64,000 nucleotides of DNA from Liolophura sinensis (taxonomy: Eukaryota > Mollusca > Polyplacophora > Chitonida > Chitonidae). Numbering within the stretch: the first letter of the stretch is position 1; each line of letters starts with the position of its first letter. Below are positions 1,771-59,062 of this stretch, piece after piece. The translations under genes were made by a program, and so were the position numbers. The DNA lies in assembly GCF_032854445.1 (NCBI RefSeq), contig NC_088295.1, positions 58,509,249 through 58,573,248 on the forward strand, read 5' to 3'. The notes beneath the pieces were generated by a model that saw nothing but the letters and a program-made list of their open reading frames with translations, had not been told where the DNA came from and did no database searches.

Positions 1771-1844
1771 TCACATCACGGTGGCATTCTCGTAAACTCT
1801 TGAGCCAGAAGGTCTTGATGACGACAGGTCTTCATAATGTGGAC
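1771..1844 (-). CDS. Gene A exon 12: second YxxL, YEN motif and stop
   Basis: 74 nt ending in TGA at 1773-1771, encoding [20 protein letters not shown] then ATVM. It is four codons shorter than B, C and D between the second and third tyrosines. Confidence 0.85.
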
Positions 1845-56700: not shown

Positions 56701-59062
56701 ACATTACCCGATTCGTTGCCGGCTAACGTCTTTTTACACACCAAAACCTTGCTTCAAGCTATTAGGCAGGTGACATTTTGATCAAAGGCACTGACCAAAT
56801 TCAACCCGCGGTGACTGGTTTCCGAATTCAGATGATAGCTGAATGCTGGAATATATGTATACACGTACTAATAAACTTTATACAAAAATGCTGATATTTA
56901 CATAAATACAGCCGTAAGCAGACCAAGAACAAACGCTAAAAGGTATTAGATTCCGTTTCACAGCTATATGTATAGCAGATTGCAGCATTATATAAATGGT
57001 GTGATTAAACCGACCAGAACCCAGGGGAAACTCCATAGCATCCGCAGATTACTGGCAGATATTCCCACATACCATCAGAGGACGGTAGCATGAGCTGGAG
57101 TTGAACTCAGACCGACAAATTAAACTTATTACATATTTACATTACAGCATGCAGAGAGTTGCTGAAGACATCGAACAACCTGAACCTCCTCCACTTGGTA
57201 AACTCATTTTAACTTAATTTCTTGGGTTAAAATTTTACTTTAAACAAATTAAGACGCGTGACAGTTGATTGAGTAAATCTCAACTTCAACAGATACAATC
57301 GCCATTATTTCAAATACTCGCCAGCTGTAAGATATTGTCTTGACGTAAATGTTCTTTGTGCTGTGAGGTGCTTACGGTTATTTACCATCCAAAATATTAG
57401 GAGCACGTGTTATAACACCTTATATTATGCATATGTGATACAGTTTATTCATAATGTCAGATTTACTGTTTTCTAAGCTGTATGTATTAGAATCCCCAGA
57501 GATGGTAAAAAACATGTAGACAATTTTTTACAGATTGTGTAGCAGATTGTAGTGAAGAATGTTTTAGAAGATTGGCAATTCCTCCATCTTTGATTTACCT
57601 AACTAAAGGTGTTCTTTTTTTCCTCTGTAGGTCATTATGAAGAACTGGATACTTCACCCAGCTCAGGTATGCTCTACTATGGGAGAGTTTAGTATTGTCA
57701 GATATTTTCACATTAAGCCATACAGTAGCTCTAGCTTGATGTCTAGTGCGGTCTAATCATTGTTCTTTTATAAGCCAGGAGGTATATGTCGAGTTGGCCT
57801 ATGCCTGGACAAGGGTTGTTAAGCCACAAGGTATGTCGAGTAGACCTATGCCTGCACAAGGCTCAGCAAACCAGAAAGTATGTCGGATAGGTCTATCCCG
57901 AAAAAAGGGCCATTAAGTCAAAAGGTAAGACGGGGTCTCCGTGGCTCACTTGGTTAGCGCGCTAACGCAGCGTAATGATCTATGGGCCTCTCACCAATGC
58001 GGTCGCTGTGAGTTCAAGCCCAGCTTATGCTGGCTTCCTCTCCGGCGGTACGTGGAAAGGTTTGTCAGCAAACTGCGGATGGTCGTGGGTTTCCCCCGGG
58101 CTCTTCCCGGTTTACACCCACCATAATGCCGTCCGCCGTCGTCTGAGTGAAATATATTCTCGAGTACGGCGTAAAACAACAATCAAATAAATAAATCAAA
58201 TAAATCAAAAGGTATGTCGGGTGGGTGTATTCCTGAAAAAGGGTCATTAGACCATGAGGTATGCCTAAAAACGTGCCACTAAGCCATAAGGTACGTTGGG
58301 TAGGTTTCTGCCTGAACAAGGGTCATTAAACCAGACGGTATGTTCGGTAGGCATAGGCGGGGCCAGTGTCATCAACCCATAAATTACGTCGGGTAGACCT
58401 GTGCCTGAAAACGTGCCTCTATTACACCAGAAAGAACATCATAAGTTTAAACCCGACCAGCATCCATTTCATGAGACACAAGTAAACCTTCTTCTGCACG
58501 CAGTTAAACACAAAAAGAGCCTTTATACATGAAAAAGGTCTGCTATCAACTGAAGTGTCTGACATCAGTGTAGAAGATGGCAATTGTGAAATCTCTTGTA
58601 ACAGTGGTTAAGTTTTAGAAATTCATACTGATTATCTTCACCATGGAAATTATTTTGTATTGGTCCCAAATTTTATTCTCAGCTTGGCCTTGGATGTTGA
58701 CAGATATGACACAAATGCTGAGTACTGACTTTGTCTGTACTGGTTGTGGTTGTGTTCTTAGCTTTAGAGGAGCTTTGCACCCTCTGAGTGCCGTCTAATT
58801 TCATACAATATACTCTATTTGCCTGAGTTTCTAGAGGCTTGATTTCCTCATTAGACATTACAGTACGTTGTTCAGCGGCATGGAGGCTGTACTACCCAAC
58901 TAGCATTTCATGACTAAAACTGTAATAATTAGTGTTTATTGTGTATTTTTAATAAACATTTTCCTTTCTTCGCTAGGTCCACATTACGAAGACCTATCCA
59001 GGAATGTGTCGTCGTCAAGGCCCTCTAACTCGAGAGTTTACGAGAATACCGACGTCATGTGA
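47706..59062 (+). CDS. Gene D: five-Ig, one-FN3 transmembrane receptor (12 exons)
   Basis: Intact plus-strand paralogue of B. Exons: 47706-47778, 48622-48966, 50053-50364, 51807-52103, 53126-53461, 53690-53980, 54569-54856, 55613-55744, 56046-56088, 57148-57197, 57631-57666 and 58977-59062. They total 2289 nt, 762 residues plus TGA. Order: signal peptide (1-24), Ig1 (25-139), Ig2 (140-243), Ig3 (244-342), Ig4 (343-454), Ig5 (455-551), FN3 (552-647), membrane exon (648-691) and tail (692-762). Ig1 to Ig3 each have four cysteines. The tail holds YEEL and YEDL nine residues apart, a YENT motif and a proline-rich run. Nearly identical to B in exons and introns but without B's two lesions. Expected at the cell surface; ligand unknown. 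Confidence 0.9.
47920..48060. repeat. 31-bp minisatellite in intron 1 of gene D
   Basis: About four units; fewer than at 17190-17390 in gene B. Confidence 0.88.
48345..48427 (+). pseudogene. Relic Ig1 exon in gene D intron 1
   Basis: Same decayed Ig1 start as in gene B, with preserved acceptor and TGA at 48425-48427. Present in both copies, so it predates the B-D duplication. Confidence 0.75.
48622..48966 (+). CDS. Gene D exon 2: Ig domain 1 (V-like)
   Basis: 345 nt, phase 1-1. Contains [25 protein letters not shown] and WICLYAS. Acceptor tttattccag. Confidence 0.9.
49389..49505 (+). pseudogene. Relic Ig2 exon, piece 1 (gene D)
   Basis: Counterpart of 18715-18830; contains 'atttttacctgtgtgacctc'. 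Confidence 0.6.
49600..49695 (+). pseudogene. Relic Ig2 exon, piece 2 (gene D)
   Basis: Counterpart of 18925-19025; reads LTLRNTPDAVF then a deletion before CVTSASA. Confidence 0.65.
50053..50364 (+). CDS. Gene D exon 3: Ig domain 2
   Basis: 312 nt, phase 1-1. Contains [20 protein letters not shown] and [10 protein letters not shown]. Confidence 0.9.
51420..51640 (+). mobile_element. SINE family 1 (gene D Ig2-Ig3 intron)
   Basis: Counterpart of 20755-20970. Confidence 0.8.
51807..52103 (+). CDS. Gene D exon 4: Ig domain 3
   Basis: 297 nt, phase 1-1. Contains LTCQVGKGNPLPTLAW and TCVCKGSQNG. Confidence 0.9.
53126..53461 (+). CDS. Gene D exon 5: Ig domain 4
   Basis: 336 nt, phase 1-1. Contains FACNMSESNPAAVLSWYNN and VIRCQAQRPGNG. 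Confidence 0.9.
53690..53980 (+). CDS. Gene D exon 6: Ig domain 5
   Basis: 291 nt, phase 1-1. Contains KISCDV, ILWVKNG and SGIYRIEARN; the F-strand cysteine is missing, as in A and C. Confidence 0.9.
54569..54856 (+). CDS. Gene D exon 7: fibronectin type III domain
   Basis: 288 nt. Contains [20 protein letters not shown] and [16 protein letters not shown]. Confidence 0.9.
54958..55195 (+). mobile_element. SINE family 1 (gene D FN3-TM intron)
   Basis: Counterpart of 24238-24450. Confidence 0.8.
55613..55744 (+). CDS. Gene D exon 8: transmembrane helix
   Basis: 132 nt. Helix from VGFVAGIALVTLGVVMVTC, then [12 protein letters not shown]; donor GTTAGC. Confidence 0.88.
56046..56088 (+). CDS. 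Gene D exon 9: cytoplasmic microexon 1
   Basis: 43 nt encoding ELQESDKPTADQDT, phase 1-2. Confidence 0.8.
56279..56598 (+). mobile_element. SINE family 2 (gene D intron 9)
   Basis: Counterpart of 25557-25866. Confidence 0.8.
56942..57115 (-). mobile_element. SINE family 1, antisense (gene D intron 9)
   Basis: Counterpart of 26213-26392. Confidence 0.65.
57148..57197 (+). CDS. Gene D exon 10: cytoplasmic microexon 2
   Basis: 50 nt encoding [16 protein letters not shown], phase 2-1. Confidence 0.82.
57631..57666 (+). CDS. Gene D exon 11: first YxxL motif
   Basis: 36 nt encoding GHYEELDTSPSS, acceptor cctctgtag. Confidence 0.82.
57770..58430. repeat. About 47-bp minisatellite in last intron of gene D
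   Basis: Counterpart of 27026-27710, with one or more units fewer on the right side. Confidence 0.85.
57925..58210 (+). mobile_element. SINE family 1, complete (gene D last intron)
   Basis: Same insertion as 27187-27448, so it predates the B-D duplication. Confidence 0.87.
58977..59062 (+). CDS. Gene D exon 12: second YxxL, YEN and stop
   Basis: 86 nt ending in TGA at 59060-59062. Contains [20 protein letters not shown] and VYENTDVM. Confidence 0.85.

Follow-up and report, generated by a model that had tools for sequence, protein, structure and literature searches.

Clustered immunoglobulin receptor genes with a conserved ITAM-like tyrosine tail in the chiton Liolophura sinensis

Does a run of immunoglobulin (Ig) receptor genes in a chiton encode a recognition system that would signal through its own cytoplasmic tails, and which parts of such receptors have been held and which have changed? 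We analysed a 64,000-nt window of the Liolophura sinensis genome (assembly GCF_032854445.1; 609 Mb, 632 contigs) at C1:58,509,249-58,573,248, where C1 is contig NC_088295.1; positions below without a prefix are those of the window. It contains four paralogous genes, c1-c4, in the strand order -,+,-,+ that a sequence-only reading of the same DNA had proposed. The four copies are real, and the array they belong to extends past the window. We lean, by a modest measure, towards the view that the family consists of germline-diversified single-chain activating recognition receptors.

Gene models were predicted from genomic sequence alone, with splice sites traced by copy-versus-copy comparison and signal-peptide exons located by a scan for donor phase and hydrophobicity. 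The genes have a common 12-exon plan comprising a signal peptide, five Ig domains (Ig1-Ig5), one fibronectin type III (FN3) domain, one transmembrane helix (TM) and four tail exons designated TX, T1, T2 and T3. c1 (1771-15386, minus strand), c3 (31046-45818, minus) and c4 (47706-59062, plus) were fully open, encoding 766, 763 and 762 amino acids, respectively, with GT-AG splice sites and consistent phases. c2 (16977-28334, plus) was disrupted by a 1-nt deletion within a G run that shifts the frame in Ig1, and by a 153-nt deletion that removes the second half of Ig5 and leaves 138 nt of the usual 291; its tail exons were open. The Ig1 frameshift, lying in a G run, could be an assembly error, and the Ig5 deletion is unlikely to be one. 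The claim that all four copies share five Ig domains is therefore not exact for c2; the FN3 exon, the single membrane-helix exon and the four tail exons were traced in every copy. The limits given by the sequence-only reading coincide with the outermost tail exons of c1 and c4, and it listed neither the signal exons nor the damage to c2. All Ig, FN3 and TM exons start and end in phase 1, TX runs from phase 1 to phase 2, and T1 returns to phase 1. These phases ruled out a direct in-frame junction of T1 with the TM exon, and TX was included because the phases between the two require an extra exon. The membrane helix has no internal charged residue of the kind calling for an adaptor, and the predicted anatomy of c1-c4 is that of a self-contained signalling receptor.

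In c1, the signal-peptide exon (15314-15386) is followed by Ig1 (14478-14828), Ig2 (13734-14042), Ig3 (12583-12879), Ig4 (11511-11840), Ig5 (10071-10361), FN3 (9171-9458) and TM (8041-8202). The corresponding exons of c2 are the signal peptide at 16977-17049, Ig1 at 17953-18296 (344 nt, frameshifted), Ig2 at 19381-19692, Ig3 at 21136-21432, Ig4 at 22471-22806, the shortened Ig5 at 23035-23172, FN3 at 23849-24136 and TM at 24883-25014. Those of c3 were traced to 45746-45818 (signal peptide), 44889-45233 (Ig1), 40448-40759 (Ig2), 39258-39554 (Ig3), 38275-38604 (Ig4), 36966-37256 (Ig5), 36055-36342 (FN3) and 35333-35473 (TM), and those of c4 to 47706-47778, 48622-48966, 50053-50364, 51807-52103, 53126-53461, 53690-53980, 54569-54856 and 55613-55744 in the same order.

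The tail is encoded by TX (c1 7551-7593, c2 25316-25358, c3 33665-33707, c4 56046-56088), T1 (6632-6678, 26419-26468, 32108-32157 and 57148-57197), T2 (2919-2954 with EYEDL, 26884-26919 with HYEEL, 31439-31474 with EYEDL and 57631-57666 with HYEEL) and T3 (1771-1844, reading PHYEDL...VYENATVM and stop in c1; 28249-28334, 31046-31131 and 58977-59062), which measure 43, 47-50, 36 and 74-86 nt in the window. YE[DE]L-x9-YEDL and VYEN were present in four of four window copies, in agreement with the earlier description of YEDL or YEEL, then YEDL nine residues on, and a third tyrosine in YEN. Searched genome-wide, the T2 pattern gave 18 hits, 14 of them in C1:58.268-58.594 Mb (reversed-pattern control, 0); the four outside have one mismatch each. 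The T3 pattern gave 24 hits, 16 of them in the same stretch. Since the other eight were not above the 12 of the reversed-pattern control, a genome-wide occurrence of the tail was dropped. The cluster, about 329 kb long, holds 14 paired T2-T3 tail exons, with 11 of the 14 T2 exons on the plus strand; two of its 16 T3 exons lack a nearby T2 match, and one of these (C1:58313150) has lost its acceptor AG. Three clusters of Ig2 matches (L038-L040), sampled over 6.3-7 kb each, contained other domains and no such tail, which could lie beyond these stretches.

The tails examined comprise nine complete ones and five covered over T2-T3 only. The spacing between the two YxxL motifs is nine residues in 14 of 14 tails, and YEN and a glutamate at +1 of both motifs are likewise present in all 14; both YxxL tyrosines are present in 13, as are both leucines. 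The near-constant exon length reported earlier was borne out: TX is 43 nt in nine of nine tails, T1 47, 50 or 56 nt, and T2, counted up to its GTA donor, 36 nt in all 14, with other non-consensus ends fitting the scan as well in a few. Exon length does not prove selected spacing, as had been argued from it. The nine-residue linker shows zero length changes and the linker from the second to the third tyrosine (10, 14 or 15 residues) at least two, a contrast that is not significant alone because there are so few length changes. Residue conservation is the better argument for constraint, and a modest one: in 13 tabulated tails (a copy with a substituted tyrosine excluded), the four Y/L positions are invariant versus five of 15 other columns (Fisher p = 0.03). 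S or T stands at -2 from the C-terminus in 12 of 14 tails, which we take to fit a class I PDZ ligand, and T1 encodes PEPPP in six c-type copies, c1 among them.

What kind of motif is this? An immunoreceptor tyrosine-based inhibition motif (ITIM) needs I, V, L or S at -2 of YxxL. The first motif has G at this position in 14 of 14 tails, and the second has P in 12, T in c6 and S in L1 (copies outside the window, described below), so that only the second motif of L1 fits. Two YxxL/I motifs in one tail, as in an immunoreceptor tyrosine-based activation motif (ITAM), were found in 13 of 14, and the spacing of nine falls outside the consensus printed as YxxL/I-x6-8-YxxL/I (PMC5383719). The tail is therefore termed ITAM-like and is not a classical ITAM in that printed sense. 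It is conceivable, and in our judgement improbable, that the genes encode scavenger or uptake receptors whose tails carry YxxPhi endocytosis signals read by AP-2 and not immunoreceptor motifs. The variants seen at the YxxL sites (YEDL, YEEL, YEVL and YEGL) all fit YxxPhi, and paired motifs would drive internalisation; however, YxxPhi requires neither the YEN nor the glutamate at +1 that all 14 tails share, and sorting would need no fixed relation between the two motifs.

Self-BLAST of the window revealed a repeated unit of ~30.7 kb (16015-28561 versus 46748-59283, in pieces 93-96% identical), between whose copies the minus-strand genes are more diverged than the plus-strand ones. A spacer repeat at 62678-63998 pointed to a third unit, and the flanking DNA, inspected over 100 kb to the right and 140 kb to the left of the window, bore this out: c5 (minus) and c6 (plus; Ig1, Ig2, Ig5, FN3 and TM exons) form a third pair at +64 to +87 kb. 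A single inverted pair, occurring in three copies (c1-c6), thus accounts for the divergent arrangement; in the first and second copies the two start codons are 1.6 and 1.9 kb apart. As the arrangement is confined to c1-c6 and most tail copies lie on one strand, the proposal that divergent pairs are the unit of the system was not upheld. Three further copies, L1, L2 and L3 (all plus), have two Ig1 exons, Ig2, Ig5, FN3 and TM, with no Ig3 or Ig4 match in the flanks inspected. L0 (minus) is a more distant copy of the same layout; no tail was found for it in the stretch inspected, which ends ~3.4 kb past its TM exon. Genome-wide, Ig2 gave at least 45 matches among 63 scored candidates (20 at C1:58.27-58.59 Mb, seven at 60.5-60.8, two at 62.8 and 16 on seven other contigs) and Ig1 at least 59 among 69, both counts being lower bounds that include fragments and relics.

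Several smaller features accompany the array. Upstream of the signal exons, conserved stretches on both strands (15698-15784, minus; 47308-47394, plus) agree at 65% over 29 translated positions; tried as signal exons (15784-15698 / 47308-47394), they were dropped for better candidates from the donor-phase and hydrophobicity scan, and they may be a 5' leader or a promoter that the inverted pair has in common. Relic Ig1- or Ig2-like fragments (17654-17740, 48323-48409, 18749-18847, 49421-49519, 29102-29197 and 59637-59723) sit beside the genuine c2 and c4 exons and in spacers. A 1.3-kb stretch occurs in two tandem copies, 92% identical, at 59909-62563.

Selection was examined as the ratio of amino-acid-changing to silent substitution rates (dN/dS) by Nei-Gojobori counting, with bootstrap intervals for the window comparisons c1-c3, c1-c4 and c3-c4. 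Left out were c2 Ig1 past codon 70, the frameshifted FN3 of c5 and, because its hit was split, the second Ig1 of L1; L0 was used in trees only. Tail dN/dS was 0.20 (0.09-0.42) for c1-c3, 0.32 (0.12-0.70) for c1-c4 and 0.34 (0.16-0.72) for c3-c4, and, as estimates without intervals, 0.37 for c3-c5, 0.52 for L1-L2 and 0.43 for c3-L2; the c2-c4 value of 1.45 rests on three differences, is uninformative and was not used. The tail is under purifying selection in c1-c3, c1-c4 and c3-c4. The proposed multigene Ig receptor with a self-contained tyrosine tail thus stands, with tail ratios in these three comparisons away from the value near 1 that had been named as speaking against it.

These ratios bear on whether the locus is simply a decaying array, most of whose copies are unexpressed and whose tails are conserved through recent duplication and conversion only, an explanation we regard as very unlikely. 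Both Ig5 and tail dN/dS are well under 1 in the three window comparisons, three of the four window genes are fully open across 762-766 codons and 12 exons, and the tails of two subfamilies have retained the motif despite strong silent divergence (c3-L2 dS, the silent rate, 1.36). Signs of decay are nevertheless present in the broken c2, the relic Ig1 and Ig2 exons, the 1-nt frameshift in c5 FN3, the T3 exon at C1:58313150 without an acceptor AG, segments with unequal silent divergence, and a degraded minus-strand copy, 2370-310 bases to the left of the window, whose FN3 and Ig5 exons contain stops (five of them in Ig5).

The membrane-distal domain gave a different picture in some pairs. Ig1 dN/dS was 0.90 for c1-c3 (bootstrap 0.58-1.6), 0.80 for c3-c5, 0.74 and 0.85 for L2-L3, 0.66 for L1-L2 and 0.78 for c3-L2, and a contingency test of amino-acid versus silent changes indicated an Ig1 excess in c1-c3 (p = 0.0009) and L2-L3 (p = 0.0015). 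High values were not confined to Ig1: for c3-c5, Ig2 and Ig3 gave 0.71 and 0.62. Across 12 Ig1 sequences, the middle third (columns 29-70) was the most variable, with a mean entropy of 1.21 versus 0.75 and 0.83 bits, and a further variable stretch lies past the last Cys; these regions would be where a V-type domain has its binding loops.

The histories of the exons are also unequal along the gene. Between c3 and L2, dS was 0.28 for Ig1 and 0.47 for Ig2, compared with 1.0-1.4 for FN3, TM and tail, and Ig5 was saturated; nucleotide identity was 80% for Ig1 and 55% for Ig5. Identity between the subfamilies reached 80% for Ig1 and 84% for Ig2 in single pairs and was 67-73% for FN3 and 52-58% for Ig5. 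Diverged receptors appear to have exchanged their N-terminal exons, which would have a more recent shared history than the remaining exons; part of this signal could also be produced by silent rates that differ along a single gene. An Ig1 exon 2 Mb from the window (C1:60519576-60519911) has 83% protein identity to c3 Ig1, which suggests copying between clusters. Outside the window, C1:58336793-58342951 contains five tandem Ig1 exons on the plus strand, in three steps of 1.08 kb and one of 2.6 kb, and none of the listed Ig2 matches falls between 58,325,992 and 58,374,861; it is a candidate many-Ig1 gene or alternative-exon cassette.

Three observations lie apart from the receptors. The c3 Ig1-Ig2 intron contains a LINE-type element (41491-44467, plus) with three adjoining open frames, the middle one of which (42220-43629) encodes a reverse transcriptase domain (RVT_1 E 9e-34). 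In c1, the T1-T2 intron carries a 12-bp tandem repeat (48 register copies, open in several frames on both strands) and the TX-T1 intron a 40-bp tandem repeat, the repeats lying at about 3000-3840 and about 6690-7470. Contig C99, with seven COX1 copies ~15.5 kb apart and 7-8 inner TGA codons in each, is a mitochondrial concatemer and probably an assembly product.

Could the ectodomain instead identify these genes as adhesion receptors? In an exon-wise Pfam scan, c1 Ig4 (C2-set) and Ig5 (I-set) scored above the curated cut-off and c1 Ig3 and FN3 just under it, c3 Ig2 scored barely above (C2-set_2, 21.3 versus 21 bits), and no match was obtained for c1 Ig2 or for Ig1 of c1, c3, c4 and c5. Ig1 was recognised weakly through more distant paralogues (Ig_3, 4.5e-5 to 0.01 in four of six sequences scanned, all below cut-off). 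The whole c3 protein belongs to the immunoglobulin superfamily by profile (Ig_3 5e-23, I-set 2.7e-20 and C2-set_2 3.6e-18, three stretches each), with Ig and FN3 matches only and no sushi match. Against the PDB, the ectodomain's top matches were titin, SYG-2, NCAM2, FcRL5 (E 3e-9) and Robo2, Ig2 alone matched SYG-2 best (E 2e-4), and the Ig1 profile gave nothing meaningful. The genes may thus be adhesion or developmental receptors of the nephrin, SYG-2, Robo or NCAM kind, expanded for cell-cell recognition and not defence, in which the tail tyrosines would be separate docks for Src-type and Grb2-type SH2 domains and the YxxL pair would not be read as a unit. We consider this possible and on balance unlikely. 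The PDB matches are generic Ig folds that do not define function, and a large tandem expansion, signs of exon exchange, broken copies and a fast Ig1 in some pairs would be unusual for adhesion genes; the spacing of nine outside x6-8 does favour separate docks, as do the motifs themselves, YEEL and YEDL resembling the SH2 preference of the Src family and YEN that of Grb2.

For the favoured reading, activating recognition receptors, expression and an immune role are presumed and the following scheme is proposed. The membrane-distal Ig1 would bind a ligand that varies or evolves quickly, such as a microbe, a parasite or a self/non-self marker. Clustering would lead a Src-type kinase to phosphorylate the paired YE[DE]L tyrosines, and the phosphorylated pair would dock an SH2 effector, either a tandem-SH2 kinase or phosphatase or a Src-type protein. 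The separate pYEN site would recruit a Grb2-type adaptor and act on MAPK; PEPPP may add an SH3 contact and the C-terminal S/T-x-hydrophobic end a PDZ contact. The family would diversify as genes duplicate in tandem, Ig exons are lost or gained, receptors exchange their N-terminal exons and Ig1 undergoes relaxed or diversifying change, while the tail motif is held. An SH2 search of the genome gave 45 matches among 70 scored. One locus is a clear SHP2 orthologue (E 1.4e-41 in PDB), and two further loci look by eye like PLC-gamma and RasGAP.

A number of results weigh against activating recognition receptors. Tail dN/dS was higher in c4-c6 (0.60) and L2-L3 (0.67), both without intervals, and the TM exon also gave high values, 0.68-0.73 in four pairs. 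Ig1 dN/dS was low in c1-c4 (0.39), c3-c4 (0.38), c4-c6 (0.50) and c2-c4 (0.10, first 70 codons), and the contingency test indicated no Ig1 excess in c3-c5 (p = 0.39) or c1-c4 (p = 0.45). No Ig1 point estimate exceeds 1, and relaxed constraint therefore fits Ig1 as well as positive selection. One of the 14 tails, at C1:58286109, has Cys in place of the second tyrosine, and the spacing of nine departs from the printed ITAM range in every tail. The signal-exon scan succeeded for c6 and L0 and found none for c5, L1, L2 and L3. A doubly phosphorylated ITAM recruits a tandem-SH2 kinase such as Syk or ZAP-70. No Syk-type kinase was present among the seven of 45 SH2 matches read (three loci). One study reports that, among invertebrates, Syk/ZAP-70-type kinases turned up solely where CARD-CC and Bcl10 occur as well (PMC5978004).

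A more far-reaching reading, which we put forward tentatively and think rather unlikely, is that the genes constitute a modular innate repertoire, in which interchangeable Ig1 and Ig2 exons would be copied from one lineage or cluster to another, over distances of up to 2 Mb, onto a small number of unchanging signalling chassis, and the nine-spaced paired-YxxL plus YEN tail would be a distinct, non-canonical immunoreceptor switch kept as a unit.

How new would such receptors be? The vertebrate FcR-like proteins, CEACAM3 and FcgRIIA likewise combine an Ig ectodomain and a YxxL pair in one chain, with a spacing of 7 or 12 and no known FN3 domain. The Hydractinia alr proteins differ from the array genes in domain make-up, and we know of no paired x9 tail among them; IgR is a name related to the oyster CgIgIT2. 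As described in a review, CgIgIT2 of Crassostrea gigas has five Ig domains, a membrane helix and an ITAM, binds Vibrio bacteria and lipopolysaccharide, dimerises and acts through ERK (PMC11999971); that review calls the motif a classic ITAM, and the title of the paper it cites says inhibitory receptor. c1, c3 and c4 resemble it in combining, within one chain, five Ig domains outside the cell, a single membrane helix and a tail with its own tyrosine motif, the other copies having fewer Ig exons. Compared by description only, they differ in their FN3 domain, which the account of the oyster receptor does not mention, and in forming an array, which it does not describe. The Botryllus FcoR genes are, in the account cited, clustered type I Ig receptors with YxxL-type tail motifs encoded beside partner genes (PMC12065747), and resemble the chiton genes in these respects. 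However, they combine a V-type Ig domain, a sushi domain and two Ig domains of C2 type, a make-up that c3, with its lack of a sushi match, does not share; their tails carry a hemITAM, an ITIM or a lone core motif, and their pairs consist of fester and FcoR and not of two like receptors. In the same source, Hydractinia alr is a complex of several invertebrate Ig receptor genes that encode ITAM and ITIM motifs, and in this it resembles the present genes. No closer match in print was found in our literature search. Because these oyster, Botryllus and Hydractinia systems precede it, the kind of receptor is already known; the chiton genes are set apart by the spacing of nine, by their FN3 module, by how large the array is and by N-terminal exons that appear to have been exchanged.

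If expressed, the 14 tails, with at least two subfamilies and one Y-to-C variant, would form a compact natural series for asking how far the spacing of an ITAM-like motif can vary, and the receptors would be a case of a fast-changing outer domain with a held signalling end. They would also add another lineage to the short list of non-vertebrate animals in which Ig receptors that signal through tyrosines occur in clusters, and would be relevant to the question of whether such receptors are ancient or were invented repeatedly.

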